Source: Glandiceps talaboti (lineage: Eukaryota; Hemichordata; Enteropneusta; Spengelidae). Taken from it: a stretch of DNA of 64,000 bases. A program made the translations under genes and the position numbers. The DNA lies in contig NC_135549.1 in assembly GCF_964340395.1 (NCBI RefSeq), positions 7,614,842 through 7,678,841 on the forward strand, written 5' to 3'. Positions within the stretch are counted from its first letter, which is position 1. Every line of letters begins with the position of its first letter. Positions 17,501 through 61,080 of this stretch are shown here, in pieces. The notes beneath the pieces are model-generated. The model made no database searches. It was not told the DNA's origin and saw only the letters and a list, made by a program, of their open reading frames with translations.

Positions 17501-18398
17501 TGCTACCTCTATATCACATTCATATAATACACGTCTTGCCACTGGCGACAACTTCATTATTCCAAAAGTAAATTTAAGTACAACTCAAAACAACATTTAT
17601 TACTCTATCGCAAAACACTGGAACGAAACTCCAAATCTGATAAAATCAATAACCTCAAGAAATTTATTTAAAAAGTCGCTTAAGAATTATCTTTTGAACA
17701 CAGTATAGTGAAAATCCTGTATCATATTTTTTTTCTTTCTAATGTAAGTTTCAGTCTTTGTTGACACTGTAAATATATTTAATGTATATCTAATGTATAT
17801 AAGATGGCAAAATTTACTGCTTTCATTTAACAAGTGTATGTATTCAGGGCCAGAGACTCGATTAGTTCCACTAGAACTACCTCTCTGGTCCTCACCAATC
17901 ATGTACATGTACATTTATTCTTGGTGAAATAAACTTATTATTATTATTATTATTATTATTATAAAATACAGGTTACTATCGGCATTTGGTTAGCAAGTAG
18001 TCTAGTCTAACACACATTGTCTAATTGAGACAATAATATGTACAAAATGTGGACTTCTGAAACTGTCTTTAGAATTACAGCACACTAACATTCATAAAGA
18101 ATGCGTTAGGTATCAATTTGTCATGAAATACAAGAAGATAGTGGCATGGTTCAAAGATTGACGCGTGACGCCAATTCTAAAAACATTTTAAAAGTGAAAC
18201 AAGATCTCAAGGTCATAGACAGTCATCAATTGTGTCAGTGTACGGTAGCTGGTGTGTGTGTGTGTGGGGGGGGGGTGGATGGATGGATGGATGGATGTCC
18301 ATGTACAATTCACTTGTATTGTCATCCTTCAGTGTCCTAAAGAGATCTGACAGAATTATCCAAATGTAGTCATATAAACATGATAAATAGGCTCCAGC

Positions 18399-21400: not shown

Positions 21401-22589
21401 ACTCCATGTAAGTGAGATTCTAGCGAATCAACATTTTTCTGATATGTTTATGCTGTCACCGCCAGTAAATTGCAACAAACAAAGGTTTATACTACATTGT
21501 AGGTTGGGGGCGCCCTCCTAGCGTGATTGGTGTAAAATGTCACGGCAAGCCGTTCGAGCTCTCAGCATGCATAATGACTTCAGTGTTCTATGAATGTTCC
21601 AAGGCACAGTAACAACGACATCGCTGACCTGTGCCATGAAATCAACATTTGGCGCCATATTACTAGTTAACGGCTAAGCACGGTCCTATCTCAACATATC
21701 ACAGCAAATTCACATACGAATGACATAGACAAGTAAATAAAGCGACTTAGTAATATCAGGTATTGTTTTTCTATCTGCAGCTTGTGAAGAAAATCAAAAC
21801 TTCTTCGAATGTTCCATTATTGATACACCAGGTTTGTTAACCGATTTACTATTTGCATGTTTGTTGAACTTCACAAATAACAATGTTTCAATTTGTTTTA
21901 ACAGTTCCATTACTTAATTGAAAGACACAAATAATTTTCCTATTACCGATTTTCCTCTTACCGTCTGTTGCTGCACCACTTCCATTGTGTACTATACTGT
22001 TCAATGCATACATTTATTTGTTACAATACACATCAACCGTAACAACCAGACAAGTACGTTGTCATTAACAAATACCAATCCTTCTATTAGTAAGAAGAAA
22101 TTTGACCACATCTCCTCATCCTCGCCGCATATCATTGACGCAACGAAAATTAACATCTGCGCCGAGCGTCTATTGAGCGCTGCTGTAAAGAGCGAGCCTA
22201 GTGAGTTACGCCAATGCAGGTACTGGAATTGACATACATGCCATCCATTTGTAGAAACCTTACAGCAATCTTGAATCAGCTAGTCAATAAAGTGTGTATC
22301 TATGTGTTTTACAGATAAACGACGAGCGTTCTGGGGACCAGTTGTTATACAAAATGTGAGGAACTATTCACAAGTTCGAGTTGAATTTGACTTGCCACCA
22401 CACCATTATAACATGAACAGTTTTCGAGTTTTTGTTTGTACTGTAGATATAATAAACAATGGAGAAGTGTCGGTTGATACATGTGGATACCGTATTCAAG
22501 ATATAATAACGGTAAGGACATATTTCTTTACTTTTAACCACTAATGCTATCATTTCCTGACCACCACCACCACCACCACCACCACCACC

Positions 22590-25600: not shown

Positions 25601-26932
25601 TGTTTGCGCTGCATTTGCATGTAGCTGAGTTCTTGAAAGTGAAGTTTGCAACTTCCATTGGAAGTACTTTACTGCAAGCAAATACAATACGATCATACTA
25701 CATTTGTCAGCAATGTATTTCCCTTTACCAGCTAGATCATAATTATTATCTCAAGTTCATTTGGTTAATTAAACGCAGAGAGTTTCTGATACGGCACCTA
25801 ACGAAAATACTGGTGTCCGATCTCTTTGTATTAAACAAAAGGATGTAAATTCAATAAACGACTAAATCTTGATTGAAAATTTGCGAGAGTTTCACGAATA
25901 GTTCAGTTCCCTTCGAATATCAAATTATTTTCAGTAGAATGAATAATCATAGCATATGTAGGCCTGCGTATATTCCATATGAAAACATATTCCATCTTAT
26001 GAAAAATTATGACACACATAAGAGCGGTGGACCGAATTTGACACCTTTGTTGTAAATGCAGGAAGCTTTCTGACTTTTGGTCTAAATGACAAATAAGTTC
26101 GCCTTTATTACACAATTCATAATTTGCCTTTACGTCATTCTCTTGTCATTTGCTCAGTGACACATGAATATTTACGAAATATGAATTTATTTATTTTAAA
26201 ACAGGTGTTCAGAAACGTCGAATAATGTTCCTCAGTTCAGATGATACTGAGGAACACGTTAGAGTTGTGGAGACCTTTGGAGTATTTTGGCAGGCTTGTA
26301 ACTTTGACGTCATCTGGCCACCTTGGAGGGTAGACCAGGAAATAAAAGGACTACAGGCCCTGCAATGGTATTCGAGAACATTGAAAACAGTGGATAAAAT
26401 AGTACTAATTATTTCAGAAGGCGTGAAAGAACAATGGCAGTTATTGATTCAGAAAAATGGGAGACGAGACCAGTATCAAATTAATGGAAAAACTGACATG
26501 TATACTTCAGCGAACATTAACCATATTATATTAAGATGTGCTCTTAACATAATGTGTGCCGATGTCGAAAAACCAACAACGAACTACGCAAGGCGTGAGA
26601 AATATATCAATGTACTATTACCGTACACACGGTTGGAACAGATTATAGAACCGGCTGCAATATTGGGTAGCTGTTACAACGTACCGAATGATATCGAGTC
26701 ACTGTACATGAACCTTTTAGGTGTACAACAAAAAATGCCTCACCGTAACATACGGGCCAATAGTATGCAACATATGCTTTATGAAACACATGAGGGACTC
26801 ACACTGCTTAAATCCATTAGGGAACATGAGAAATGCGAAGAGAGAAATTGTGATTGGTATCCAGACGAACAAGAAAGTGGAGAGGCATCTGAATCCTATC
26901 CAATGTTTACTTACTATCCACCTAGCTTATAG
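14545..26932 (+). CDS. IL-17-receptor-like membrane receptor: signal peptide, two fnIII-like domains, EGF, TM, SEFIR
   Basis: Twelve exons give 2172 nt, 723 aa: 14545-14649, 18710-18749, 19312-19473, 20455-20591, 21272-21407, 21781-21831, 22315-22511, 23233-23331, 23778-23862, 24274-24396, 25183-25491 and 26205-26932. Residues 1-22 are a signal peptide ([15 protein letters not shown]). Exons 2-5 make the first fnIII-like domain ([19 protein letters not shown]) and exons 6-9 the second. Exon 10 is an EGF-like module with six cysteines ([11 protein letters not shown] at its start). Exon 11 holds the TM helix (about residues 390-411, [20 protein letters not shown]) and an acidic juxtamembrane stretch. 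Exon 12 is a SEFIR domain ([21 protein letters not shown]) with a short acidic tail. In IL-17 receptors the SEFIR recruits an adaptor such as Act1. An EGF module between the ectodomain and the membrane is unlike the vertebrate receptors I know. The ATG was chosen because the signal peptide starts there. Confidence 0.9.
15655..16960 (-). mobile_element. Degenerate non-LTR retrotransposon 3' fragment (minus orientation), intron 1 of receptor
   Basis: On the minus strand, 16515-16922 encodes the C-terminal part of a reverse transcriptase ([16 protein letters not shown], then YTYLGI). Further on, 15853-16053 encodes a Cys/His segment ([17 protein letters not shown]) of the kind found behind the RT domain in LINEs. 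The two parts are in broken frames. The element ends near 15670 in ATCTA repeats. It is 5' truncated and inactive. Confidence 0.75.
17200..17962 (+). mobile_element. Non-LTR retrotransposon 3' fragment (plus orientation), intron 1 of receptor
   Basis: A 158-codon open stretch at 17232-17708 encodes the C-terminal region that follows the RT domain in many LINEs. It includes [23 protein letters not shown] and LGILNIYKL, and near the end [12 protein letters not shown]. About 240 bp of 3' UTR follow, then a terminal (TTA)n run at 17937-17962, the usual LINE 3' end. The tail differs from the fragment at 15655-16960, so this is probably a different family. It is strongly 5' truncated. Confidence 0.8.
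18256..18296. repeat. GT/G-run/(GGAT)n microsatellite
   Basis: A short GT run, a G homopolymer and GGAT units lie in intron 1 of the receptor gene. Confidence 0.8.
18393..18618. repeat. (TGTC)n and (TATG)n microsatellites
   Basis: About 85 bp of TGTC, a short mixed GTGT/GCAT spacer, then about 100 bp of TATG, ending about 90 bp before receptor exon 2 (18710). Confidence 0.95.
18841..18932. repeat. Near-perfect 92-nt inverted repeat (hairpin), intron 2 of receptor
   Basis: The left arm CTCTTTGTCATTAAAGCTTA and its continuation GCATTTGGGTG pair with CACACAAATGCTAAGC and TTTTATGACAAAGAG on the right. An inner GAGACACA/TGTGTCTC pair lies around a tiny loop. The stem is about 40 bp with few mismatches. 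It could be a palindromic repeat relic or a hairpin RNA precursor. Nothing in the sequence decides between them. Confidence 0.85.
19575..19850. repeat. (ATCC)n and (ATTC)n microsatellites
   Basis: Blocks of CATC and CATT tetranucleotides lie in intron 3 of the receptor gene, with a second short ATTC block after a unique spacer. Confidence 0.9.
22560..22680. repeat. (CAC)n(CAT)n trinucleotide array
   Basis: About 45 bp of CAC are followed by about 70 bp of CAT, about 50 bp after the donor of receptor exon 7. Confidence 0.95.
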
Positions 26933-37320: not shown

Positions 37321-38552
37321 TACTGATGTACTGTAACGTACATCGTAAATAAAAAGTAAACAATTTCCAGATACATGTAAATGGTCACACGAGTGTTTGG
37401 TGAGTGTTAATCTCGGTTACCCCACCGGTTACCCAGACGCTTCCATCCCCAACAGCGGCGTCATGAACTCAGCCATCAGCGGTGAGGCAAGGTAACCGAG
37501 ACAAGGTGAGTTTTGGCAAACAAATCAGGCATGCACCTGTTTGATCAATGACAGATCTTCCTATGTTATGTCATATTCTATTTAATCAGCCTCGTTCTCT
37601 GTCAGTGCTCTATGTGTTTTGATTGACTTTTTTCTAAAAGTATAGTATATATGGATTGGATGGGCAGTCTTGTGTCCTAGTCGAGACCAGGATGATTACT
37701 TAGTTATACGCGTTGGCACGGATATAATTTTATTCCGTTGTTTGAGTAATACATCTAGTAATACAGCATGTATTACTGATATGAAACTACGTGTGTGAAT
37801 TGTTCGGTTTATTCATCCTTGCCAGGGAGGTATTCATCGAATGGCTTTCAAAGATGATTTCAAAGACCAGCATAGTCAGTACAGCGACAACTAACAGTTC
37901 TTCGCCACATGTATTCTTGGATATAATTAATGTCCATCATCCATCCATCCATCCATCTATGATGTAGTACCAAGTAATGTCATATGTTTTATATGATATG
38001 TAAATATAATATACTGCACGTGTCCTTGAGTAAGTACTGTAACAATTTATGACAGCGTAAAATCTTGTAATTTTTAAAAGTTTTAACCCAACTTCAATGG
38101 ATTAATCTTACATGTAACTGATTGATAAACTTGATGTGTGAAGTGTTGAATGGTCTGGACCTCAACTTTCAAATTGAATTGTCTTATGTTCTCTCAGAGT
38201 CGTTAGTGGCGTCCCCATTATTGTCTTGTTCAAGACTGTCATTCCTCTTCAGTTCTCTGAAGCTAACACAGTTTGGCTCGGCATCTGGATTGAATGAAAA
38301 AATACACCAATATTTGGTCAGTTTGCAGCATTTCAAGCACTCAACATTTCGACAATGATCTACAATGCGAAGTACGCCTTTAGTGATGCAAACTGCAATA
38401 TGAATTCGAATTTTTTGTTGTGATCCATGTATGGTAACCGTGAATTTGATTGGAAGACTAATAGGCTCATATTTTCTTGCAAGCCAATCAGTAACATTGT
38501 TTAGTTGCAATTTTCTGAAGCTAAGTATGACCACGCCCCCTAACGTTAAAAA

Positions 38553-41500
38553 TCAAGCAAGAGACCCACCTTCGTTTTTGTCCTTATTACCGTGAGTTTT
38601 TCTTCTTAGTTTTTGCTTGAAGGTTTTCAGCTGTTTCATGATTGATTTTCTAGCAGGCCCGTTACGTTGCACTGCTTAAAAAGAGAAAGTGAATAAAAAT
38701 GGATAATTAGTGTTTTATCAAAATAGAGAGCAAAATTAATTATAATATTAGAGAAATGAAGAAGTAGAATGCTCTGCAGTGTTTCCATGGTTACCGTATG
38801 CTTCACAATTTTTTCTGCACTATGAAATCGTATTTTGAAAGACTTCCTCTAACTTATTCATTACGGCAATAATCATGTTACGTACCTTCATTTAGTTCTT
38901 TGCCTTTGTCTTCGATGTCGTCTTTAGTTCTGAAAGGCATCTCTTTCCAATAACCTTCTTCTTTACCGTGCATCACTACAAGGGTAACATTGTATAATGT
39001 ATCTGGTTGTAAGTCGTGGACCTCAACCTGTGTGGTGATGGCATCGTCGATATCAAGAACACGAGGATTATTGGCGGCGCCATTCATTTCAACCACATAT
39101 AATCTGTATCCTGTACAGTTGGTGCAGGTATTCCAACGAATCCCTGTTCTTTCTTTGGTCAACAAATAAAACCCCATTTGCGTAATATCTGCTACATCTG
39201 GGAAAACAGAAAACGCATAAAATGCCTTGTGTTATGATGAATGATTTACTATGATAATATATCTATCATCTCCAAGGATCACGATTTGAGGAAACATGAA
39301 AAAAATCCTCGACATTTCAATTTGTTTACATCACATGTTAGTTCCTTCATTTTACAATGTTTTGATATTACTTGATTTCCGAGTGGCTCTCACTGTATAT
39401 TGTCACTCGACTATTTTTTACTGTAAATATCAGAACAGCAACTAGCTTTGTGGTGTTACAGTTCAAACTACTCCCAACCGTATTCATGATAATATAGCAT
39501 AACGACTTACAGCTTCGTACTCAAATTTCATATTGTTTAGCCAGACTTAGTCTAGACTGAACCTTGCGATATTGACATTGTAAAATAATGTTTCTTACTT
39601 TCCGATAAATCGTCACTTTCAGGATGTTCAACACATTCAGGTAAATGTAGGGAATCCATCACGTTTTCAGTAGCATCATTCTGCTCACTATTATCTACTT
39701 CCGGCTCATTCTCGTCTTGTGGTGTTGCTTCTTCGGTTGGTTGATTATTGAGCTGTGTATTAAAATTATTAATCTTTTCCCTTGGTTCATCTGCGCAATC
39801 ACCTAAAGTAGAAAACATACAGCCAGTTGGTTTGAGAGAAGAACCAAACATTCCATTTTTTCGGTGCTTCTTAAAAACCAATATACTGTATACGACCATG
39901 GTCGCTATTCTGATTCACAATGTCGTTAAAGCCAGTATGCGGTGTCAGATAGTCTCTGGACTGGGTCATGTGACACCAGATTCATTAAATGTGATCTCTA
40001 GAATATATATGTGCAAGAACCAAATTGTCATCTGACAGTAGTAAATTACGGCGACTACAATTCGAAAACATAGACAAAACATGGCGCTGTACAGTTTATG
40101 AAAGTATTAAGGGTTTACTTCAACGGCGTGGAAAAACGCTTTGAAAAATAAACAAATTGTTATTAAGTCGATCATAAGACCACTTAATTCCACTAAATTC
40201 GTTTAGTGGTCTGAGGTTAATCTTATTGTTCAATGATAGATCTGAACTGACCTTGAGTTGAATTCAAACTTGTTGGTTCACTTTCATCAGAGTCATCACT
40301 CTCTGACCACGATAGTTCCTCAGCAAGGTGGTTACTGTATTTCTTCAGTGCGTCTTTAAATTCAATTAAAGCAATCGTGCTTTTCGGGAGTTCCTTAATT
40401 AGCCGACGAGCTTTCTCGGTGTTTGTAATTTCATTCGAAATGGCTTCAACTGTCTGTTCTGTCAGTATACCATTTTGCAGTAACCAATCTAACACGTTAA
40501 GGACAATAAAGCGAAGTCCTTCAACGAGATCACAAAGCTTCTGCACTAAGCACGAACGATGCCGCTTTCGTATGTTGTCCAACCACACTTCAACCAATTC
40601 ACTGTACTCGGGAAAGATGTCTTTTTTCTCCTGTACCAGAGTTTGTAATAACGCTACCTTATCACGGATGCATGTTTTCTGACTGATTTTATTGCAGTCA
40701 TCTTCTTCCAGGATTTCGTGTTGACAATACACATCTAAACAATGTAGTATTTCAGCTGTACGGGAAATAAAATAAATAAAGGTAGTAGTTTCAGAAACAT
40801 TTGAACCAGAATTCGTTCTATCGACAAGCGACACTTACAATTCTCTTAATTACATATACTTACTTTGCTATACAAAGACAAAACTCGTACGGCCAAGTTG
40901 ATTTATTGTCAGGGCCCGCGTGGTGTTAACTGTTTATACCACGCACAAATGGAAGTGGGTATTGCTTGCTGGTCTATGAGACTTGGTTAACGAGAGTGCC
41001 ATGGAATACTTTAATGGCGTTCAAACTGTTTTGTCCTTCAGCAGTTTCATGATGCAATGTATTTCTAAATCCCCTTACTGAATAAAAAAACATTGTTTTG
41101 GTTTACTACCACTAAATTAAATTTAAAAAACACGACATCGTAGGACCTTTATTATTATTACTGTTTCACATTCAAAAGTACAGATAGTAAAAAAATACTC
41201 ACTCGGGGAAAATCCTATCTCTCTACCACGCGTTATCAGCTTCCTGATTTCCTGAGTGTGGATTTCGCGGACGGCATGATATAGTTCTTTTCCTTCTTGG
41301 GTTCTTTGAATCTCTTCAATAAGAGGAATTGAGATTTTCTCACGTCTATGGATTAACCTTCCATAAAAATGAACGATTGTGGAAGGCTCAGCTGGAGACA
41401 ACTTGTACCACTTGGCATGAAATTGTCGCATCAATTGTTTTGGCACTTCTTCCTCACGACTACTATAGTTAAAGTATGTGGCAAAGAACTTGCCTCTCCC

Positions 41501-44500
41501 TGGTTGGTTTTGTTTATTTAAATCTGAATCAACGAGTACGGCGTTTAAGATAGGATTGGAGGATGACACGGTCTTTCCATTGTCGTCAGTGGTTACAGAT
41601 TCATCACACATTTTTTTCATGGACTTGGATGCAATAAATATAATCCTATTGGCATTTCTTATATGATCTATAGCGTCATCAATTTCATCCTCTGAACGAT
41701 CCAATATGTTCACAGCCGTGGCAACCATACTTGGTCCAAGATGTACGCGTAAAAATGCAGCAAACTTCTTAGCGACATCTTCATGTTGTGGTTGATCTGG
41801 CGCGTAAAGTAGTAAACAATAGATGTCTTCACCTGCTTCGACAGCGTCACCAAAGCGTATACGTACATAACCTGTCACGTCGCTCTCTTTATCATTTTTC
41901 TTTTCCGAAACTGCACCCTTTGTTTTCGAAATCTGTACCGCACCTGGCTGATCAACACCTGGCTTTTGGTTTTCTGATGAAATAGAATTCACATAACATG
42001 GTTAAAAATTGAATAACTACGTCACATAAATTGTTGCATTTTGTTGCACTACAAAATAGGTAAATTTAAACATAAATTCTCAGAGCATCAGAATAATGAG
42101 ATTTTTGTCTTTTCGTACTCCATAAACCACCACACTTCGTAGCATTGCATCCCTTAATAACCCTGAGGCGACAATTTGAAAATAAATTTGTTCTGTGAGT
42201 CTCTGTGTTTATGTGTGTGCTTGTGTTGCGTTTTCGACGACCTATTTTCAAATGAATGATGTTCAGTAAATAAAATACAATATTTTTCATTTAGTTCTGT
42301 TAAATATTCATGAAAAAATGTAACGTGACAACAAATTGCAAATTGTCATAATGTTTCGGAGTATTTTAAATTCTTCAGATTTCAAACATAAATTTGACAA
42401 AATTCAAATCTTGTTCCTTCAACAGGGCAGTGAAAGTGGAGTATTATAAATCAAATATTTATTACAATGTAATCATTTTCTGGGGATAGGTTATCGGAAA
42501 TGCATGTTTTGGGGGTGTTTTCGCCTCAGTAAACGTACATATAATATATTGTGTAATCGAAGCGTTTATGTATTATCCCTGTCTAAGTTATGCCAATGAC
42601 TAGACTTACTGACGGTGGTTAAGAATACCTCAGTAATTCAGAACACAACAGCTATATTTTGATCTAAAGCAAAACTTAGGACCCCAAGAATGTATCAACT
42701 CAACTTATGCCCCGTTGTCATCTACTGTAAACCCGACAAATCGTGACCTGATCTGTCTAACCTAGCCTCTGCCTGACCTCTGATGCATTAATAATGTATT
42801 ACAAGTTGAGACCAAGTATTTTACTCTTGTCATTGTGTACTGGCAATCTTTCACCTATAAAACTGCCAAGACTGTTGGTTAGGTTTATACCCCTGTTACT
42901 TCAGGGCTGAAGACTCGACCACAGTCACACTGTCTGAAAGAGGGACTGTGACGCGACATACTAGCAGTAAATTGGCACGAGTTAGCAAGAGTAAATAGTT
43001 CTATCTCAACCCCTAGATATGACCTGAGCGTAAATACGTCATCATTATTAGTTGTCAAGTCATTATACTTTACTGCTAGTTCTATACAACAAAATAGCAC
43101 TGTGCGTCATCAAATAGTCCATACACTTTTGTTTACTTTTACAGAATTGGACTTTAAATGGGTCACAGTCGAAATTTATTAGGAGTAGGCGTGTATAATA
43201 GGGACTAGTTATTTGTTAACACATTTCGTTTTTTAACCGCTGTCTTCAAGCTTCTACCTTCCCTAGCATTTTGAAAAAGTGAAATATACAACTTTAACAC
43301 TGAAATTTATCATGTTTTCATCATTGAAAGCCAACAGTAAGATACACAATAAAAGAAATACTAACAACTTTACGGAAAGAATATCAACAATGGTTTTACT
43401 TTTCATTCCACTGCACTGTGTCATCGTTTTATTACACAGTCCCTGTAACATGCTAGGCATGGGAATGAGGTGTGATTCACTTTCATCATTTAGAAAATAT
43501 AACGATAAAAAAATAGATACTCTCGTAATGATAGAGCACTGAAAATTTTCAGGAAGGATCAAAATTTTAAAAAAAAATGATAAAGCACCAAACGTTGTAC
43601 ACAAGTAAATCAGTCTATTGTGTCTCTGAATTTATGTGACACGTGATAATTCACATAGCGTACATCATGTACACATAGCGTACATCATGTACACATGCTT
43701 CCTTAATTAAGCTGAATTTAGTAACTTGCCTCTATGACCTCTCGTGACTCCACCCAGTGACAGTCTGCCTTATTACCTATCAAAATATCTATTTAACAGA
43801 TCCACTTACGTTTGAATACTAGACAGCATTGAAAATTGTGTTTATGACGTCAAACATATGTTTTATCGCACCTGTCTGTTATGAAACCGTTGATCATATG
43901 ACCAAAGGACTTCGCGATATTTGTGTTGAATATCTGTCCTGTCTCTGTGTGTAACCGTATTTACAAAGAGTCTAGATCTCAATTCCAAGCTCTCTCTACG
44001 TATACATGTATACTTTTTAAAACGTGGGTCATAAACCGTTTACATACAAAATATGTGATTCACTTCATCACTGACTGGGACATTTGGAATTGGTTCAAAT
44101 GTTGGTAGCAACTTCTTAGTAAGTTCGGTGGTTTAAGCGCCCATTGTGTTGGATATCATGAATATGTCTATATTGTTTTCAATTGTATTATTGGTATCAA
44201 AGATCATGAGTGAACTAGTAGACATGATCTGGTAGACATGAACTGGTAGACATGAACTGGTAGTGAACTACCACATGGGTTAAACAGTTGTAAACGTTCG
44301 TCAGTTGTGGTAAACTATCACATATGGAATTCATACGGAGACAAGTCGACACTTTACACAATTTCACACAGATGTTTTTTTCATATAAAATCTAGTATCA
44401 TGGTATATCATTTGTATATACTACACGGAAATAAATGCCAGAATTCACCCCGGAAATACGCCCAAAAATAGTCATTTAGTCGACTCAGACTGCCTTATTT

Positions 44501-44939
44501 TATTTTGCTGTAATGCTTAATTAATAACATGCAATGGTGTTCTAGTGTCGTTTTAGAAATACTGGTGAACGTTGCCAAAAAAGAGGTGGTATTGTGACAA
44601 ACTGGATGGCCTGTATAGACTTGGACCAAAGAAGGAAGTTCACAGAGGTCAAGCAGTCTATTGTCATCCGCCATTTTTTTCGCGAAGTTCCCATTTTCAA
44701 TCGCAACAAACAGTTTCAAACTACATATACATATATTTATAGAGAACATGCATTCAGCATATTACTAAAATGTTCAACATATCAAAAACAATTTTTAAAA
44801 GACACACAACCAAATCAAGCTATATACCATTGCAAAACGTATGGCAGCCATGTCATATTGGGAAAGACAGAAATGAGTTGCATATAAACTTACCTGTACC
44901 AGGGATCTCAGTCATTACGTATGTGTCTATACCTGCCAT
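38553..44939 (-). CDS. SEFIR-CARD-CARD-FN3 protein, predicted cytosolic signalling adaptor
   Basis: The minus-strand exons, in transcript order, are 44939-44894, 41973-41203, 40755-40252, 39802-39599, 39197-38886 and 38674-38553, giving 1959 nt, 652 aa. All junctions are phase 1. Residues 1-15 are MAGIDTYVMTEIPGT. A SEFIR domain covers about 66-220 (YCLLLYAPDQPQHEDVAKKF, NRIIFIASKS, FFATYFNYSSREEEVPKQL). The third exon encodes two death-fold units: a weaker CARD-like one (about 273-340) and a clear CARD (about 345-420: VLDWLLQNGILTEQTVEAI, ARRLIKELP, FKDALKKYSNHLAEEL). A strongly acidic linker follows (441-508), then an FN3 domain (509-612: TGIRWNTCTNCTGYRLYVVE, LQPDTLYNVTLVV), then a basic tail. 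No signal peptide or TM was found, so the FN3 would be intracellular. The 5' exon was chosen because it starts with ATG, ends in a GTAAGT donor and has the right phase. Its large intron (about 2.9 kb) makes it the least certain part. The C-terminus also has an alternative. Confidence 0.75.
38671..38676 (-). other. NAGNAG tandem acceptor of last exon
   Basis: Transcript-sense sequence CTTTTTAAGCAG offers two in-frame acceptors three bases apart (exon starting at 38674 or 38671). They would give proteins differing by one residue. Confidence 0.5.
40177..40215. repeat. Degenerate CTCAGACC palindrome
   Basis: AGACCACTTAA on the left faces TTTAGTGGTCTGAG on the right, with an inner perfect CCACTAAA/TTTAGTGG hairpin (40190-40209). 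It lies in the intron just after the CARD exon of the SEFIR-CARD-FN3 gene. Confidence 0.7.
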
Positions 44940-48489: not shown

Positions 48490-51400
48490 CTAGCTCGTGT
48501 TCATGGACTCAATGCCCATTGCGATGAGGTTTTCTTCAGAATCGACGTTATCATCTTGTAATGGGTACTTAACATTTCCACCTTGTTTTTCTATTTGGTA
48601 ATAAACACAGTGAGTTTTATCATGTATTAGCCTGTCAGTCACCAGCTCATTGGTCAAAGTTTAATACACTACGAATAAGTACGTTGTATTTTCCTACCCT
48701 CCTCGACCCATGTCACGGTAACTATGACGACCATGCACTACATTGAATGTATTGTGTATGTATATATAGACCTGTGACACCACGGTGTTTGTATTGGACA
48801 AGTGTCGTTAATTAAAACACATACCCTCCACGAATAATGTAGGGTCTACGATTATAATAAGTCTAAAGAAGAAGCAAATACAAACCCAACCTGATTAAAA
48901 TCTGATGAGGTGACTAGATGTCTTTATTTACCTCTGTTCCCATCGTTTTGTGTCGTTTGTTTTTGCATCGTTTGTTTTGTTCCGGGTGATCGCCGCCTTC
49001 CAGCGATCACTTGGAACAAAAGAAACGACACAAAACGATGGAAATAGAAGTAAATAAAGACATCTATCGCCGCTTTCAGCACATCAAATTTTAATCAGAT
49101 TGATACTAAACCCAAATAATAAACCACTGAAACAACAAGGCATATTTACCATCATAAACATCCGCGTCGTCCGAATCATCGCTGCTGTCAGTATCCACTA
49201 AATCCGCTAGATGACCATGGCTCACTGCTAAAGCTTCACGAAACGTCGTGACAGCAACTCTAGTGTTCGGTAACTCGTCCAACAATTTTCGTACTGCGTC
49301 GTCACCTGTTCTCTCATGCGTTATAGCCGTTGCTACAGCGGTACTGATCACATCCCTTTGTTGCAAGTAGTCGAGAACAGTTTGGTAAGTGAACCTAAGG
49401 TCTTTGATTAATTCGATTCTGTTATCTATCAGGGATTTTTTGTGTTTGTCACGGGATACATTTTCTCTCCACACTTGTAACAGTCTTTGAAGAAAATCTG
49501 GTATGTCACGGTTCTTGTTTGTAATACACCCAATCACCAGGTCCAATTTCTTACTTAAAGTACTTGCTCTCTGTACCCTCTGGTATTCTTCATGCGAAAT
49601 AAACCCCTCTCGGCGAAACAGATCCAAGCATTTAAGGCCGAAGTCTCCTGAAAGAAAAACACATGCTCAATCAAAATAATAATCCCTGATTCTTAAAATC
49701 AGCTTTCCTTGCCATAAAAAATACTTGTACATTTTGCAAATTGTACTTTGGATCATTACAACTGTATAACGATAATAAGAGTTACACATTAATGGCGGAG
49801 CAACAATAAATCAGCCAAAATCACCAGGAAACAAGATTTAGTTTGAATTTTGCAAATACTATTTTGTTCAAAGTTTTACTGCCATACTCACTCATCAACC
49901 ACACAGCGATCCATTCTTTTTCACTAGGCGAAAATATTGTGATCTTACCTTCGGAGAAACCCATATTCTCACCATGTTGTATTATCTCACATACCCCTCT
50001 CTGCCGTTTGACGTTCTGGATGCTTTTGTGGAGTTTTTTCCCTGGTCCAGTCTTCACATCGAGCAGTTGTGGAAAGGAAACTTTGCCTTTTCTGCGAAGT
50101 AATCTGCCGTAAAACGTTTCCAACGTAGATGGTGTAACCGTTGATAACTCATCAACACGGTTCACTTGTCGTAGAATTTCTTGAGGTAGTTCATCCTTGC
50201 TACTGTAATCGAAATAGACGGCAAAAAGTCGAGCGTGTCCTGGGGTTTTGTACTCTTTCAAAATGTGCAGTATGATTTCTATCACAATGTCAGTGAACTT
50301 GTTGTCCCCTCCCCGCTTTCTGTTGGAGAACAGTTCAGTTAACTTTGCAGATGCGATAATAATGATTCTGTCTGCCTGACCAATCTTTAAGATACTTTTC
50401 TCTATCTCGTCATTACTTTTAGATTCGTTCAGATTGAACACGTCGACTTCTGTCTGTGCATCACGGTGGTGGTATAAAAATTGGCCAAAGCTGTTCACAA
50501 CTTCCTCGTGTTTTGGTCCATCTGCCACATGGACAATGGCAATGGATTTGGGTTCTTGGGCTACTTCTTTTCGAATAAATTTTACATATCCTGGTAATTG
50601 ACAGATTAAAACAGAAATGAGAAATTATATATTAATGAATGTACTTGTAGACTTATGTGTCTCATGTGGTTGCTATAACGAGATAGACTGTGACGTAGTA
50701 GCATGGTGGGCGTGTTTATTTTTTAAATGACAGCTAGTTGACTATTGCTCTCAAATATACTAGTACTAGATACTAGTACTGTGTCGCTTTGTACATGTAT
50801 AATGTATTGGGCCTCATTAACGTAATAGTCTTTTATTCGTGTTCAACATGTAGGAAATGCTTATCATTTGATCATAATAGTTATTGAAATCTTTACAACG
50901 CAATACAATACAGTATAACTCAACACAGCGTGAATTACTTTGTAAACACTACACAACACCTCAGACCACTACTAGACAACACATACTACAGAACACAGCA
51001 TGACATCGCAGAACACTACAAATCACAAAATACGCAATGCAATGAATTACAATACACCATTATGAACACATCATGTCAGTCATGCCACGGAGCAGAACAA
51101 CAAACCACTACAATACACAATACAACACGACACAAGAAACATAACACAGTAGATAACTATGCAACTTACAAAACAAAATACATGTAATGCTATTAAAGGG
51201 TACATATATCTCTTGCATACCTGGGTCATCGCCGGAAACGCTCTCTTCGATTCCTTTAGCCAATTGCTGTTTCAGGTCGGTTTCAGCGTCACTAAGACTC
51301 TGTAGCGCTTTGTGTTCCCCTACACAATATAATAACGATAATAGCAGTTGCACATTAATGGCGGAACAGCAATAAATCGGCCAAAATCACCAGGAAACAA

Positions 51401-52763
51401 GACTTAGCTTGACTTTTGCAAATACTAGTTGGAAGTCACTCTAAATAGACCATAACATGACAGTCCTTTTCGTTGAATATTGGCGATTTGATCGTAGTCT
51501 TTGTTTGCTTACAGGGTTCATTCCCTTTCGACTTTGTTTCTCACCTGTGATATTTTTGCTGGTCCTGTGACGTTCTCCGTATTGCTAAATGGCTTTTTGC
51601 AACTGTCGTAGCTGAGATATAGGTTGATTTAAACTATTTGCAGATATTCTGTTCTATTGACCTTGCTCCTCACCCAACCCCTCACCGTCTCACTTCAATC
51701 AATAGAACCAGTTACACCACTCAATACGGAACTATACGATTGCAATACCTGTGATAGATGGTTCCATTTGTCTGTATGTCTATAGATAAACTATCTCAAA
51801 ACCTACGGCATCAATTCTAATGAAACATAAACATCTCTCTTATGGTAATTAAAGAATCAATTCGGTATTGGAGACTTCATAATGAGCTATTTGCATAAAT
51901 AACGAGTTTTAGTAATTGGACTACATCTGAAAAATGCAGTTTTCATATTACATATAGCCTACGACATACATTGGCGATAACTTTTACATATGTGCTCTAT
52001 TGGTTTGGATAACATCCTTTGCATATTGATGAGTCATTTGCACAAGCGATGACTTTTTTTGTAGTTATGCAATTCTATATCTTCAGAATGCATGTTTCAA
52101 ATTTCATATCACTTGGAACATACATTAATTGATGGTCGCAAATCGTATTGTCATATACACTTTGACGATGAAGTTCTTCATTTTAATGACTCACTTGCAT
52201 ATTACCTATCTATCTTTGTACTTGCTATTTCACATTCATTTAAGACATTTTGGCGTGTGGCTCACAATGTTAATAACAATCGTTTGCATTCAAGAGTACT
52301 GCATACAAATACATGTAGTTTCTATTTCTTACAAGAGATGGGACTCGATACATTCCTTCGATGCAATGCCCTGGCTTGTAGCTAAGACCACTATAGTTGT
52401 CTGAGCTTGTAGGCAGGAGATTTTCTTTTATCATGGGAGTGGAGGTGGGCTTCAATTTATATTTGTACAAAATGTTGTTTAAATAAATTGAAACACTTCA
52501 ACATTTACATAATAATTTACATCTGGTAAATGACTTGCATGGAAATTTATCTTATTGACTGTATACATATTCAACTTTTGGTATAGACATGGATTGTATA
52601 ACATGTCATAGAATGAGTGACGTCAACACAACTACTGCTTTCCATAGTTACGACACTCCTTCTGTATATACAGCTATCTGTGATCATTACAAACCTTCTG
52701 ACAGCCTTAACCATGTCAATTGAAAGTCAAGTATTGGTCTCTATACGTACCTATAGTTGCCAT
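48490..52763 (-). CDS. SEFIR-CARD-CARD protein, copy 1
   Basis: Five minus-strand exons in transcript order: 52763-52751, 51319-51221, 50590-49949, 49647-49150 and 48590-48490. They give 1353 nt, 450 aa, with every intron in phase 1. The protein starts MATI and has a short charged helix-like segment (residues 5-37). A SEFIR domain spans about 38-215 (SIAIVHVADGPKHEEVVNSF, ADRIIIIASAKL, LFAVYFDYSSKDELPQEIL). Two death-fold units follow in one exon (252-417). The first is CARD-like (LFRREGFISHEEYQRVQ). The second is a clear CARD (VLDYLQQRDVISTAVATAI, VRKLLDELP, FREALAVSHGHLADLV). An acidic DSSDDSDD stretch leads to the tail ending MGIESMNTS. No signal peptide or TM is present. It is predicted to be a cytosolic adaptor. 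SEFIR domains pair with SEFIR domains of IL-17 receptors and CARDs pair with CARDs, so it could bridge receptor to CARD effector. This role is inferred. Confidence 0.85.
48890..49101. repeat. Long inverted repeat in last intron, unit 1
   Basis: Arms of about 95 nt (CTGATTAAAATCTGATG ... GTGATCGC and GCGATCAC ... TTTTAATCAGATT) flank a loop of about 10 nt. The arms pair through CATCGTTTTGTGTCGTTTG and AATAAAGACATCT-type blocks with some bulges. It is a foldback element inside the intron that precedes the last coding exon of SEFIR-CARD copy 1. Confidence 0.85.
51770..52130. repeat. Dispersed repeat, copy 3 (intron 1 of SEFIR-CARD copy 1)
   Basis: It shows the CTCAAAACCTACGGCATCAA start phrase, then ATTTGCATAA, TAATTGGACTA and TTCAAATTTCATATCACTTG blocks, matching the elements at 185-830 and 5870-6310. 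In unit 2 about 0.4 kb of the corresponding sequence is missing (near 60400). Confidence 0.55.
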
Positions 52764-55107
52764 ATCACAAATGCCGTCATTTCGTAAAATTGTCTTTGAT
52801 ATAGAGTATAGTTAAAGCAAGAGACGTAAGAAAGTTACACGAGGAAGTTAACAAGTGAACGATGCGTTGACGTCTACGTACGTAGTGTAGCCTAACACCG
52901 TCTAACTCTGAACCATAGTGACGACTACCGTGTTTAGGAGATTGTCGTCTGAGCTATGGTCAGGCAAAAACTGTCAGTGGCGTATCAGTCACCAGGGCCA
53001 ACAGTTGCCGACTTCAAATCTTCAAGTTTGTCGCACTAAAGAGACAATGACAGTTCTTGAAAAGCGCTGTTATTTTTCTAGTGCACCCGGAAGATCTCAG
53101 TGACTGAATCATTCGTAAAATTACTATACTTCCTCAATCTTGTTTGTTTGTTTGGAAGTACAATACAATACAGTGGTTTATCCCCGAACCAAAAATACCC
53201 GTCGTGCGTCAGTCTACTCAGAAATGACTTACTCCATAGGTTTTGTCAGTGGCTGTCTGTAGTTTTGTAGGACGTTTAAACATAACTACAGATAGAGCAG
53301 AGAGAACATAGTATCAATGTAACTGTAACACATTTCGAGAAAAGGAACTTCAAGCTACGCTTCCTGTGACTTCTAGAGCTATTGTTGTGTATCAATGTAC
53401 CCGAACCATTGTGTTCATCAGATCATCAGATCACAGGGTCCCTGTCTATTTTTTAAAGGTTTGAGCCTAAGTCGCTCTATATCTATAGAGGGACTGTCGT
53501 TCAACGAATCCGTCCCAATCATATTATGTGTTTCTTTTCTCTTAGTGTTTTGCTTTCTCAACCAGTGTTCCAAATCTATATTCGAAACGCAAATCATTGG
53601 TAAGAAATAAAGTTCAGTTTGCATATTTTTGACAAACGAATATACAAGATACCTGCAAACAAATCGACTGGTCCAATGTACATATACATGTACATGTACA
53701 TGTACGTATACATGTACTTCCTTGTTGAGATAACATTGTTGAGATTACAATGAAATACGTGCCTAGATTTGTATCAGTCCGTGGGTGCTGATATGAGTCA
53801 TACACGTTCTTGCTTACTTTTTTAAACAAGGTATATCTGTAGTTCCTATATATGAAAATTCGAATGATGCCACTACTAATGTACAGTTTAATATGTTTAC
53901 CCTACATAAGGAGTTTTAATTTAGTGTGGCAAATATATACTTTTTTACCCGGCCAGTGTCATCTTGAAAGAAAAATAATCTTCAAATTGAGATTATGCAT
54001 CCTTGTGGTATTTAAAGTTAGAGATACGTCAACAGTGTCAGCAGACATGAAAGTTCACTAGTTCTTAAAAGACATACATTGATATTGTATATTGGATATA
54101 TAGGTTGACAGCCCTTTAAGCCAACCAAATTTAATGAAAGACGTCACGGTGAACTTAAAATTGCCATGATTAGGCCTAATAACAAAATTGTGTGGTTCCG
54201 ATTACGCTCAATTTTAAAATAGGTGGGTGGGTGCGTGGGTGGATTTTTTATTTTATTTTATTTTTTCAGTTGTGAGTCTAGTTCAGGCAGTTGTGTATTT
54301 TCCAAATGGTCTCTGTGTTATTGGTTTCTTCCCATCACATGTACAGCCATTACAGATTTGAAGAACAGTTAAATTGTGAGTTTCTGCGTTCACTATTTCT
54401 AACGAGACTTCACACAATTTTCACGATTTTATTATTTTTTTTCTCGAATGTGCAAAAAAAGTTATGGTCGGCAGTGAAAAACTAAGTGGGGTCGAGTAAC
54501 CGGAACCAAACAATTATGTTCAGGCCTTACAATATTATAACACAGCAGTAGATTTCGAGACAAAATATATTTTTTAAGTTTAGAAACCTACAGACTATTT
54601 CATTTGTTTTTTTTCTCACTCACTCGTCCAATAAATGAGAAGTATGTCGACTCTAGAATTGGAAATGTCTCTGAGAGCCAGAAGTCTAGCTAATAAGTTC
54701 AATAGCTAGACGTTAGTGACTGAATATCTACATGAAGTCCATTTGCTGACCATTCTTCACGCCTACAGACTGTAATACTATGACTCAGCTTGATTCCGAA
54801 TAATTCAGGAAGGATGAGGAAGTAACAAATAGGAAGAACTTTTGAAATATTTAAATTTTTAACTTGGGTAGTGGTTTCTGGTTTCAAAAGAAAAAAAAAT
54901 TGCGAAATTCTGTTTACTATGGTCCCTGCACTGATTAAAGTTGTGTGAATTAAAGAAGTTTCATATTCGTATGGCTACAGAAAATTGAATCTGCTAATAA
55001 TTTCCAAAGGTTTAGATCATTTCGTATTAATCGTCTAGTTCGTTCAGATATTGGAACGCTATAACAAATATTCTCAACTTGGCCTTTTTTCTATGAACAA
55101 TCTGTAG

Positions 55108-55260
55108 GTTTAGAACGATTGGTACCAAAACACGCCTTCATTTGGTCAGTCTGTATGATTGAAAGTGTATGTGCTATTGTTATATTAGTATTAAGTTATT
55201 TCACGCAGGCAGAACTGGGCTGGAGCATTTCAATCGTAAGACAGGGGTTTCTTTTTAGAG
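55108..55260 (+). CDS. Possible exon of a multi-pass transporter (SLC22-like), unit 1
   Basis: A 153-nt open segment lies between acceptor ATCTGTAG and donor GTAAGC, phase 1 on both sides. It encodes LERLVPKHAFIWSVCMIES and a hydrophobic helix (CAIVILVLSYFT), then ELGWSISIVRQGFLFR. The order of a Gly/Pro-Lys loop, a membrane helix and a W.(x)..S/R segment recalls the TM5-TM6 exon of organic cation/carnitine transporters. Reading frame and splice sites are kept in unit 2 (63421-63573). No neighbouring transporter exon was recognised, so it may be a fragment left by the duplication, or part of a gene continuing to the right. Confidence 0.38.
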
Positions 55261-55679
55261 GTAAGCCAGCTAGATCTGGCAAAATGCCCCACTTTCAACT
55301 CCCAATTTTTTTTCATGACCCACCCCGATTTCTCACCAGGCCCCTTGTCGTAAATTCTGACCGCAGCCTTACTTTTGTGCTACTAACACCCAGCAAAACC
55401 GCTATTCACACCGCTCCTTCACATTTTGTAGTTACCTGTATGCCCCGTTCCATCATCATGACTTCGTAATCATTGTAGCCATATTGGAATTTTTCGATAC
55501 ATTAAGTTTGCTATTGGAATTTATCCTTTTCAAAATTAATGAAACGTCCAACAAATAGATTATAGATCGTTTGTAGAAAAAATGAATTATGAATTCGTCC
55601 GATCTTATACGTTTGGACATAATTGGGAACTCAAAAGAATAACAACAACAATAACAGCATAAGAAATAGGTGTTCCAGT

Positions 55680-55791
55680 TTGTTTGTTTGTTTGTTTGTT
55701 TGTTTGTATGTATGTATGTATGTATGTATGTATGTATGTATGTATGTATGTATGTATGTATGTATGTATGTATGTATGTATGTATGTATGT
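55680..55791. repeat. (GTTT)n/(TATG)n microsatellite, unit 2
   Basis: Counterpart of 46920-47020. Confidence 0.95.
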
Positions 55792-56938
55792 CATATGACG
55801 ATATTTGAAGATATGTGACGATTGCTTCAGTATTCTCCTGTCGTCAATGTGAGTGTCCCTCGGAGTTGTCCAAAGTCATGACATCTTTTTTTAGCACAGT
55901 TGAATTGTCTGCATTTCTTCTTTGACTAGAATTTCTGTTTTAGATGTGTTTGTATCTAAGACGGTCGACGTCCTTGTTGCCCTTTGTATCTCCATGTCTT
56001 ATCTCAGTATCTCTCTCACAACACTCATCCTGATCATGCACCCCTTCTCTCGTAAAGACCGTTATTTAATACATTCCATACAATAGCTCAATGACTATAA
56101 TTGAAATAACCTATTATATTATATTGAATTAATTTAATTTCATATAACATATAGCACAAACTATTCCCTCATAAATTATGACATTTGCTGGTTACGGCAC
56201 GTAGACAAATCCTCGTAAGTGACATAACATTATTCCCGAGTAATGGCATGGAAAGATGTAAAACACTTATCAGTTTTTGTGGAATACAGTTTCATATCCA
56301 GAGGGTGCAATGGCACGTTGAATAAAATTAACTTTTATTTGGCGGCATTTTCCAACTACATTCTCAATATGTAAGAATATACAATATATTGAAATGTCGA
56401 TTGCATTGATATGAAGTAACACCATGACTTGAATAAGACTTATTCCACAAAATGATTGTCTATTCTGTGTAACATATTGCATAGACAAAAAATGGACTCG
56501 GGTATACTTTCTGTTAATGTAATATTGGACTCGGATATATTTTCTTTTAATGTAAATGTGCTGGATAATATATGTCCAACGCTTCGTTGCATTTGCCTCA
56601 GGCATTGTCTCGTTTCTTGAATATTTCTCTGTGTGAATAAGTGAAGTAACGATTTAATATAAGCCTGGACAAATACCATGGTACGGTAGCCATTCTTAGT
56701 AACGCAGACAAACTGTCTCATGACTGACAGTGCTTTGTGTCTTACGATCGGTCACGTTAAGGTCATCGTATGTCTGCCCAGAGTGTTAGTCATAACCATT
56801 ATACACACAATCGCCTTGTTCCGATAGTCACGGACATAGACTGATAGACAGGTTCGAATTCCCTTCTTGTTTCCTTATCATACATTGTTGAACTATACAC
56901 CACGTGTAAAGTTGACCCCATTGAACTTCTGACACACC

Positions 56939-56941
<3 letters not shown>

Positions 56942-56989
<48 letters not shown>
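56942..56989. repeat. (AG)n microsatellite, unit 2
   Basis: AG dinucleotides, a shortened counterpart of 48204-48298, followed by TCAG repeats. Confidence 0.95.
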
Positions 56990-56993
<4 letters not shown>

Positions 56994-57199
56994 TCAGTCA
57001 GTCAGTTGTACGCTTGCCTACAATAGTTTAGATGTCAGCATGGTATCGAATCAACGCTAAAACGATTTTTAAGGTAAAGAGATCTTCAGCCTCTATACTA
57101 TGTCTACAATTACGCGAAACCACAACTCGAAACAAGTAGCATTTTGAAAATACCAAAATTGTAAGACCGTATTATAGACCACAACATGGGAACCTACCT

Positions 57200-60100
57200 C
57201 TAGCTAGTATTCATGGACTCAATGCCCATTGCGATGAGGTTTTCTTCAGAATCGACGTTATCATCTTGTAATGGGTACTTAACATTTCCACCTTGTTTTT
57301 CTATTTGGTAATAAACACAGTGAGTTTTATCATGTATTAGTATACCTGCCAGTCACCAGCTCATTGATCAAAGTTCAATACACTACGAGTAATAAGTGCG
57401 TTGTATTTTCATACCCTCCTCGACCCATGTCACGGTAACTATGACGACCATGCACTACATTGAATGTATTGTGTATGTATATATAGACCTGTGACACCAC
57501 GGTGTATGTATTGGACAAGTGTCGTTAATTAAAACACATACCCTACACGAATAATGTAGGGTCTACGATTATAATAAGTCTAAAGAAGAAGCAAATACAA
57601 ACCAACCTGATTAAAATCTGATGAGGTGACTAGATGTCTTTATTTACCTCTGTTCCCATCGTTTTGTGTCGTTTGTTTTTGCATCGTTTGTTTTGTTCCG
57701 GGTGATCGCCGCCTTCCAGCGATCACTTGGAACAAAAGAAACGACACAAAACGATGGAAATAGAAGTAAATAAAGACATCTATCGCCGCTTTCAGCACAT
57801 TAAATTTTAATCAGATTGATACTAAACCCAAATAATAAACCACTGAAACAACAAGGCATATTTACCATCATAAACATCCGGGTCGTCCGAATCATCGCTG
57901 CTGTCAGTATCCACTAAATCCGCTAGATGACCATGGCTCACTGCTAAAGCTTCACGAAACGTCGTGACAGCAACTCTAGTGTTCGGTAACTCGTCCAACA
58001 ATTTTCGTACTGCGTCGTCACCTGTTCTCTCATGCCTTATAGCCGTTACTACAGCGGTACTGATCACATCCCTTTGTTGCAAGTAGTCGAGAACAGTTTG
58101 GTAAGTGAACCTAAGGTCTTTGATTAATTCGATTCTGTTATCTACCAGGGATTTTTTTTGTTTGTCACGGGATACATTTTCTCTCCACACTTGTAACAGT
58201 CTTTGAAGAAAATCTGGTATGCCACGGTTCTTGTTTGTAATACACCCAATCAACAGGTCCAACTTCTTACTTAAAGTACTTGCTCTCTGTACCCTCTGGT
58301 ATTCTTCATGCGAAATAAACCCATCTTGGCGAAACAGATCCAAGCATTTGAGGCCGAAGTCTCCTGAAAAAAAAGCCACATGCTCAATCAAAATAATAAT
58401 CCTTGATTCTTAAAATCAGCTTTCCTTGCCATAAAAAATTGTACATTTTGCAAATTGTACTTTGGATCATTACAACTGTATAACGATACTAATAATTACA
58501 CATTAATGGCGGAGCAACAATAAATCAGCCAAAATCACCAGGAAAATACTATTTTGTTCAAAGTTTTACTCATCAACCACACAGCGATCCATTCTTTTTC
58601 AATAGGTGAAAATATTGTGATCTTACCTTCGGAGCCTAAACTCATATTCTCACCATGTTGTATAATCTCACATAGCCCTCTCTGCCGTTTAACGTTCCGG
58701 ATGCTTTTGTGGAGTTTTTTCCCTGGTCCAGTCTTCACATCGAGCAGTTGTGGAAAGGAAACTTTGCCTTTTCTGCGAAGTAATCTGCCGTAAAACGTTT
58801 CCAACGTAGATGGTGTAACCGTTGATAACTCATCAACACGGTTCACTTGTCGTAGAATTTCTTGAGGTAATTCCTCCTTGCTACTGTAATCGAAATAGAC
58901 GGCAAAAAGACGAGCGTGTCCCGGGGTTTTGTACTCTTTCAAAATGTGCAGTATGATTTCTATCACAATGTCAGTGAACTCGTTGTCCCCTCCCCGCTCT
59001 CTGTTGGAGAACAGTTCAGTTAACTTTGCAGATGCGATAATAATGATTCTGTCTGCCTGAGCAATCTTTAAGATACTTTTCTCTATCTCGTCATTACTTT
59101 TAGATTCGTTCAGATTGAACACGTCGACTTCTGTCTGTGAATCACGGTGGTGGTATAAAAATTGGCCAAAACTGTTCACAACTTCCTCGTGTTTTGGTCC
59201 ATCTGCCACATGGACAATGACAATGGATTTGGGTTCTTGGGCTACTTCTTTTCGAATAAATTTTACGTATCCTGGTAAATGACAGATTAAAACAGAAATG
59301 AGAAATCATATATTGATGTATGTACTTGTAGACGTATGTGTCTCATGTGGTTGCTATGACGAGATAGACTGTGACGTAGTAGCAAGGTGGGCGTGTTTAT
59401 TCTTTTAAATGACAGCTAGCTGACTAGTGCTCTCAAATCATTGAAGAAGATACTAGTACTGTGTCGCTTTGTACATGTATAATGTATTGGGCCTCATTAA
59501 AGTAGTAGTCTTTTATTCGTGTTCAACATGTAGGAAATGCTTATCATTTGATCATAATAGTTATTGAAATCTTTACAACGCAATACAATACAGTATATCT
59601 CAACACAGTGTGACTTACACCGTAAACACTACACTACACACATTACAGAACACAGCACGACATCGCAGAACACTACAAATCACAAAATACGCAATGCAAT
59701 GAATTACAATACACCATTATGAACACATCATGTCAGTCATGCCACGGAGCAGAACAACAAACCACTACAATGCACAATACAACACGACACAACACAACAC
59801 AACACAACACAGCACAGCACAGCACTACACTACACTACACTACACAACACAACACAACACAACACAACACAACACAACACGGTAGATAACTATGCAACTT
59901 ACAAAAACAAAATACATGTAATGCTATTAAAGTGTACATATATCTCTTGCATACCTGTGTCACTAAGACTCTGTAGCGCTTTGGGTTCCTCTACACAATA
60001 TAATAACGATAATAGCAGTTGCACATTAATGGCGGAACAGCAATAAATCGGCCCAAATCACCAGGAAACAAGACTTAGCTTGACTTTTGCAAATACTAAT

Positions 60101-61080
60101 TGTAAGTCACTGCAATCTAAATAGACCATAACATGATAGTCCTTTTCAAAGGTACCCCCACCTCACCTCCCCCAAGCTTATAGCTCCACAGACTTATTTT
60201 TCACTTCCGTGAGATTTGGGTTTGTCTTCAAGGGCCGTCGATTATTGGCGATTTGATCATAGTCTTTGTTTGCCTATAGGGTTCATTCCCTTTCGACTTT
60301 TTTCTCACCTGTGATATTTTTGCTGGTACTGTGACGTTCTCCGTATTGCTAAATGGCTTTTTGCAACTGTCGTAGTTGAGATATACTGTAGGTTGATTTA
60401 AGTATTTGCAGACATACATTGGCGATAACTGTACTTTCAAATTTCACATCACTTGGAACATACATTGATTGATGATCGCAAATCGTGTTGTCATATACAT
60501 TTTGACGATGAAGTTCTTCATTTTAATGACTCACTTGCATATTACCTATCTATCTTTGTACTTGCTATTTCACATTCATTTTAGACATTTTGGCGTGTGG
60601 CTCACAATGTTAATAACAAAGGTTTGCATTCAAGAGTACTACATACAAATAATTTCCGTTTCTTACAAGAGATGGGACTCAATACATTCCGTCGATGCAA
60701 TTCCCTGGCTTGTAGCTAATACCACTATAGTTGTCTGAGCTTGTATGCAAAAGATTTTCTTTCATCATGGGAGTGGGGGTGGGCTTCAATTTATATTTGT
60801 ACAAAATATTGTTGTTTAAATAAACTGAAACACCTCAACATTTACATAATAATTTACATCTGGTAAATGACTTGCAATATCTTATTGGCTGTATAAAAAT
60901 TCAACTTTTGGTAATATAACATGTCATAGAATGAGTGACGTCAACACAACTACTGCTTCCCAGAGTACAACACTCCTTCTGTATATACAGCTATCTGTGA
61001 TCATTACAAACCTTCTGACAGCCTTAACCATGTCAATTGAAAGTCAAGTATTGGTCTCTATACGTACCTATAGTTGCCAT
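57200..61080 (-). CDS. SEFIR-CARD-CARD protein, copy 2
   Basis: Five minus-strand exons in transcript order: 61080-61068, 59990-59955, 59271-58627, 58363-57866 and 57300-57200, giving 1293 nt, 430 aa. All introns are phase 1. Domain order is as in copy 1: SEFIR (about residues 17-195), CARD-like unit and CARD (232-397), acidic linker, and the same tail MGIESMNTS. Splice sites and frame are intact throughout, so this looks like a working gene. Differences from copy 1 are a 63-nt (21-codon) in-frame loss in exon 2, one extra codon at the end of the SEFIR exon (NMSLGSEG instead of NMGFSEG), and scattered substitutions (for example RERGGDNEF for RKRGGDNKF). The shorter exon 2 removes the linker between the N-terminus and the SEFIR domain. 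Confidence 0.85.
57604..57821. repeat. Long inverted repeat in last intron, unit 2
   Basis: Counterpart of 48890-49101. Both arms are nearly unchanged, showing that the element was present before the duplication. Confidence 0.85.
59778..59882. repeat. (ACAAC)n/(ACAGC)n/(ACTAC)n pentanucleotide array
   Basis: Three blocks of related pentanucleotides occur in intron 2 of SEFIR-CARD copy 2. The site in unit 1 (about 51120-51150) has only a few imperfect units, so the array expanded after the duplication. Confidence 0.85.

Follow-up and report, generated by a model that had tools for sequence, protein, structure and literature searches.

The window analysed here is a stretch of 64,000 nucleotides from Glandiceps talaboti, an enteropneust hemichordate (acorn worm), corresponding to positions 7,614,842 to 7,678,841 of contig NC_135549.1; all coordinates below count from its first letter. 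We found two genes of five exons each, arranged in tandem on the minus strand, copy 1 at 48490-52763 and copy 2 at 57200-61080, whose models join a SEFIR domain to a C-terminal CARD, with another death-fold unit between the two. All four introns of each copy are GT-AG and of phase 1, the phase being calculated from exon lengths. The spliced product of copy 2 (430 residues) is identical to a protein predicted by NCBI, "uncharacterized protein LOC144453423 isoform X1" of Glandiceps talaboti (hereafter LOC144453423 X1), and the copy 1 model encodes 450 residues in five exons matching those of copy 2. The exons are the following:

61068-61080, minus strand: copy 2 exon 1, with the start codon, encoding MATI (model equal to LOC144453423 X1)
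59955-59990, minus strand: copy 2 exon 2, in frame and 63 bases shorter than its copy 1 counterpart (splice model)
58627-59271, minus strand: copy 2 exon 3, SEFIR followed by the beginning of the first death-fold unit (Pfam SEFIR 44.4 bits, open frame 58535-59305; splice sites)
57866-58363, minus strand: copy 2 exon 4, remainder of the first death-fold unit followed by the clear CARD (Pfam CARD 57.9 bits, open frame 57822-58409; splice sites)
57200-57300, minus strand: copy 2 exon 5, acidic C-terminal tail with the stop codon (splice model)
52751-52763, minus strand: copy 1 exon 1 (splice model)
51221-51319, minus strand: copy 1 exon 2 (splice model)
49949-50590, minus strand: copy 1 exon 3, SEFIR (Pfam SEFIR 41.9 bits, open frame 49821-50624; splice model)
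49150-49647, minus strand: copy 1 exon 4, first death-fold unit followed by the CARD (Pfam CARD 49.5 bits, open frame 49106-49666; splice model)
48490-48590, minus strand: copy 1 exon 5, acidic tail with the stop codon (splice model)

An earlier description of this DNA (the sequence-only reading) had proposed two genes of the order SEFIR-CARD-CARD. The splice models reproduce its five exons, domain order and gene boundaries, and they join SEFIR and CARD in one spliced frame, as proposed. Its SEFIR call holds in both copies (41.9 and 44.4 bits against a Pfam cut-off of 23 bits for PF08357), as does its assignment of the second unit to a clear CARD (49.5 and 57.9 bits against 23.9 bits for PF00619).

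Copies 1 and 2 are recent tandem duplicates. They are 94-96% identical over their three longest matching pieces; by part, exons 3-5 are 97.5-98.0% identical, exon 2 is 91.7% identical and the introns are 95.0-98.6% identical, and the intron between SEFIR and CARD measures 301 bases in copy 1 and 263 bases in copy 2. The ratio of non-synonymous to synonymous substitution rates (dN/dS) is 0.49, based on 22 non-synonymous and 12 synonymous changes. Because the copies are nearly identical, the second adds little independent evidence, and the pair counts as nearly one observation.

Searching the window with LOC144453423 X1 revealed a third, diverged gene at 38184-44939 on the minus strand, outside the interval first described, which raises the gene count from two to three. 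Its in-silico model has seven exons, with all introns in phase 1, and encodes 679 residues in the order SEFIR, death-fold unit, CARD, acidic linker, fibronectin type III (fn3), basic segment and tail:

44894-44939, minus strand: third gene exon 1, with the start codon (in-silico model)
41203-41973, minus strand: exon 2, SEFIR (Pfam 42.2 bits, open frame 41123-42001; BLASTP)
40252-40755, minus strand: exon 3, first death-fold unit followed by the CARD (Pfam CARD 66.5 bits, open frame 40223-40834; BLASTP)
39599-39802, minus strand: exon 4, acidic linker (splice signals and phase only)
38886-39197, minus strand: exon 5, fibronectin type III, assigned to the gene by inference (Pfam fn3; fibronectin chain match)
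38570-38671, minus strand: exon 6, basic segment (splice signals and phase only)
38184-38284, minus strand: exon 7, C-terminal segment with the stop codon (splice signals and phase only)

By BLASTP, the SEFIR exon of the third gene is 33% identical to LOC144453423 X1 over 209 residues (E 3e-29) and its CARD exon 30% identical over 144 residues (E 1e-22). The intron that separates SEFIR from CARD has the same phase and the same position relative to the domains in the third gene as in copies 1 and 2, and in each of the three models the CARD exon lacks an in-frame methionine codon. That a gene only about 30-33% identical keeps the SEFIR-(CARD)-CARD order, together with the place and phase of this intron, is our strongest evidence for a genuine and old fusion. 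The fusion would accordingly predate the divergence of the third gene from copies 1 and 2, and an error of joining is unlikely. Another intron, located just before residues GYV, is present in copies 1 and 2 and absent from the third gene. Taken by itself, the fn3 exon reaches 27.0-27.4 bits (Pfam cut-off 25 bits), against 23.2 bits within the whole model, and matches a fibronectin chain with E 1.8e-8. We infer from splice signals and phase that it is part of the third gene; when the window was searched with the third-gene model, fn3 did not turn up in the vicinity of copies 1 and 2.

Across the open frames of all three genes and the whole models of copy 2 and the third gene, Pfam scores range from 40.1 to 44.4 bits for SEFIR and from 49.5 to 66.5 bits for the C-terminal CARD (43.5 and 54.4 bits, respectively, for the whole 430-residue copy 2 protein). 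The first death-fold unit lies between these two domains, at about residues 200-294 of copy 2. It scores 15.9-18.2 bits with the CARD profile in copy 2 and the third gene, under the 23.9-bit cut-off, and Pfam does not list it as a CARD in copy 1. Comparison of the first unit with the second by profile gave E 0.0019 at a probability of only 14%. Consequently the first unit is a probable CARD, and the two death-fold units claimed in the sequence-only reading stand with the second as a CARD and the "CARD-CARD" label as probable only. Pfam listed no Death profile in the adaptor frames, the whole copy 2 protein or the third-gene model, and no enzyme domain above cut-off in the latter two; NCBIfam gave only matches far under its cut-offs. 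For LOC144453423 X1, whose precomputed domains are also SEFIR and CARD and whose cluster comprises three member sequences, Pfam lists these two alone, with no nucleotide-binding, repeat or helicase domain.

Comparison with solved structures gave weak matches. Using a profile of the three genes, the matches were RAIDD (E 0.03), ICEBERG (0.14), IL-17RA (0.19), Apaf-1 (0.29-0.34) and BCL10 (0.39-0.58). The CARD exon of the third gene matched Apaf-1 (E 0.016-0.026) and RAIDD (0.029), and also telomerase (0.081). Among solved structures, the copy 1 SEFIR frame had no match, the copy 1 CARD frame matched no CARD and the third-gene SEFIR exon matched no SEFIR. Predicted alone, the third-gene CARD exon reached a confidence score (pLDDT) of 49.8. 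Foldseek rows for LOC144453423 X1 had E values of 0.017 or worse, with none belonging to the first death-fold unit as a fold of its own; the first two (ExoVII, root-mean-square deviation 57.7) and similar rows were discarded.

Against 5.8 billion proteins, LOC144453423 X1 was the sole match both of the copy 1 SEFIR frame (1 of 411 candidates) and of the three-gene alignment (1 of 7,994 scored). The 679-residue third-gene model matched nothing at E <= 10 (0 of 7,999 scored), and thereby missed LOC144453423 X1 itself, which is clearly related and within the length range. Pre-selection by shared words therefore drops true relatives, so the alignment and third-gene searches say little about other acorn worms or about an NCBI prediction for the third gene.

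The same window contains two IL-17-receptor-like SEFIR frames on the opposite strand:

2862-3734, plus strand: SEFIR open frame of an IL-17-receptor-like gene (Pfam SEFIR 76.4 bits; PDB 9ot1_B)
26168-26932, plus strand: SEFIR open frame of a second receptor-like gene (Pfam SEFIR 43.1 bits)

The first of these matches the IL-17 receptor B/A chain 9ot1_B with E 2.8e-18 and IL-17RA with E 2.7e-11. EGF-like frames upstream of both score under the Pfam cut-off. Also upstream, hydrophobic stretches resembling membrane spans can be seen by eye in 2181-2528 and 25143-25508. A weak match to the Ig-like ILCR1 profile at 22302-22541 on the plus strand (17.9 bits, cut-off 27) may mark an extracellular exon belonging to the second receptor-like gene. 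Five SEFIR frames in 64 kb, counted in this window alone and without a background rate, suggest a cluster. Derivation of the adaptors from the SEFIR exon of the neighbouring receptors was considered, and at a best E of 0.003 the similarity is too weak to claim it. Both receptor frames have acceptors that look, by eye, like phase 1, an observation suggestive for such an origin. Elsewhere in the window, frames 16515-16925 (minus) and 17202-17708 (plus), which by eye resemble remnants of retrotransposon reverse transcriptase, had no Pfam match at E <= 0.1; a tRNA scan found none, and a sigma-70 promoter scan had no bearing on the question.

We put at roughly 45% the probability that the three genes encode soluble cytosolic adaptors, in which SEFIR would dock on IL-17-type receptors and the CARD would recruit a CARD-bearing partner. 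The proteins are most likely cytosolic, since the models have no membrane-like stretch (the highest 19-residue hydropathy is 0.99-1.34 across the three). In the proposed working, SEFIR would bind activated receptors by their SEFIR tails; the neighbouring receptor-like genes plausibly encode such receptors. The C-terminal CARDs would thereby be crowded, perhaps aided by the preceding death-fold unit, and a partner bearing a CARD would be recruited, leading to filament formation and a signalling output. For an NF-kB output, this partner may be BCL10 acting with the paracaspase MALT1; alternatively, it may be an initiator caspase, reached through a CARD contact like that of Apaf-1 or RAIDD. CARDs bind CARDs, and both Apaf-1 and RAIDD bind caspases. 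Since these two are the nearest solved relatives of the CARD, a caspase would be about as likely a partner as BCL10. The sequence-only reading suggested a connection to CARD filaments, caspases or BCL10-like partners, which is a reasonable hypothesis.

Several reports bear on this proposal. The SEFIR tails of IL-17 receptors signal via the SEFIR-containing adaptor Act1 (PMC5457136), which makes an IL-17-type receptor the likely upstream partner. CARD14 interacts with ACT1 in mammals (PMC6198054), and in worms the link from IL-17 receptor to CARD signalling runs through MALT-1 (PMC7190641). Hemichordates are named among the groups with Bcl10, and a hemichordate paracaspase, which was poorly expressed, gave no NF-kB activation in human cells (PMC5978004).

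An alternative reading makes these proteins the hemichordate Act1 (CIKS), namely a death domain-SEFIR adaptor in which the death domain was exchanged for CARD-type units moved behind SEFIR, and which would signal through IRAK and TRAF like Act1 or MyD88-like adaptors. SEFIR and a soluble build are shared, Act1 orthologs of most non-amniote lineages reportedly have a death domain (PMC7190641), and hemichordates are reported to possess detectable homologs of Act1 (PMC5457136). We nevertheless find this reading unlikely: the death-fold units follow SEFIR instead of preceding it, the profile matched is CARD with no Death profile listed, and TRAF6-type motifs number 0 in copies 1 and 2 and 1 in the third gene, against chance expectations of 0.25 in copy 2 and 0.73 in the third gene.

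Soluble SEFIR proteins could also act as decoys or brakes, occupying receptor tails or CARD partners to block signalling, with several copies for dosage. The lack of an enzyme domain above the Pfam cut-off, the tandem duplication and the mild constraint seen on comparing copies 1 and 2 would all suit such a role, for which CARD-only inhibitors such as ICEBERG offer a precedent. Retention of both domains and of the SEFIR-CARD intron at about 30-33% identity goes beyond the need of a simple blocker, and we regard the decoy role as improbable. Far less probable still is that separate SEFIR and CARD genes were merged by gene-finding. The NCBI protein is itself a prediction, and our models are drawn from splice signals and phase only; against a merger stand the interdomain intron, which keeps its phase and place in the diverged gene and is just 301 and 263 bases long in copies 1 and 2, and the CARD exons, which lack an in-frame methionine codon in three of three models.

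Returning to the adaptor reading, we tentatively suggest that hemichordates may have wired IL-17 receptors straight to a CARD platform (BCL10-MALT1 or a caspase) by one SEFIR-CARD-CARD protein, in place of the mammalian pair of Act1 and a CARD scaffold such as CARD14, and that a family of such adaptors, one with fn3, may have arisen next to the receptor genes. Natural fusion of two domains hints at a joint function, and a protein with SEFIR and CARD could connect IL-17 receptors to the CARD machinery in one step. Echinoderms are close relatives of hemichordates. With this SEFIR-CARD combination, a domain of the IL-17 receptor is coupled to CARD signalling; in mammals the connection is indirect, through CARD14 with ACT1 (PMC6198054). 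According to PMC5457136, an Act1 homolog could not be found in echinoderms, and the purple sea urchin is reported without SEFIR sequences other than two receptors; the SEFIR-CARD genes make IL-17 receptor signalling in the echinoderm and hemichordate branch testable.

The sequence-only reading was not aware of a characterised protein with this architecture. A combination of SEFIR with CARD was not found in the open-licence literature, in general or for hemichordates, nor in a further protein by the homologue searches, which can miss true relatives, but death-fold units fused to SEFIR are already known, since Act1 orthologs with a death domain and SEFIR are reported in most non-amniote lineages (PMC7190641) and placozoans have a protein with SEFIR and a death domain alongside proteins that combine TIR with CARD (PMC6321704). 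What is unusual is therefore the CARD and the SEFIR-first order. A further statement of that reading, that signalling by known SEFIR adaptors does not use a CARD, agrees with mammals; in most non-amniote lineages, however, Act1 orthologs are reported to have a death domain (PMC7190641).

Compared with known systems, our models resemble Act1/CIKS and its orthologs with a death domain (for example C. elegans ACTL-1) in being SEFIR adaptors with a death fold, a combination found outside amniotes (PMC7190641). They differ in placing SEFIR first and CARD-type units after it, whereas in the reported DD-SEFIR Act1 proteins the death domain comes before SEFIR, and in the lack of a TRAF6-type motif in copies 1 and 2. 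The placozoan MyD88-like proteins likewise fuse SEFIR or TIR to a death fold, but neither of their reported combinations (SEFIR with a death domain; TIR with CARD) pairs SEFIR with CARD (PMC6321704). Unlike the CARD proteins Apaf-1, NLRC4, NLRP1, ASC and CARMA1, LOC144453423 X1 has only SEFIR and CARD listed by Pfam, with no nucleotide-binding or repeat domain. RIG-I and MDA5 have tandem CARDs, whereas the adaptor has no helicase listed, its units follow SEFIR and the first is only a probable CARD. Finally, the IL-17 receptors share the SEFIR domain but differ from the adaptor models, which have no membrane-like hydropathy (signal peptides were not checked with a predictor) and would place SEFIR in a soluble protein.
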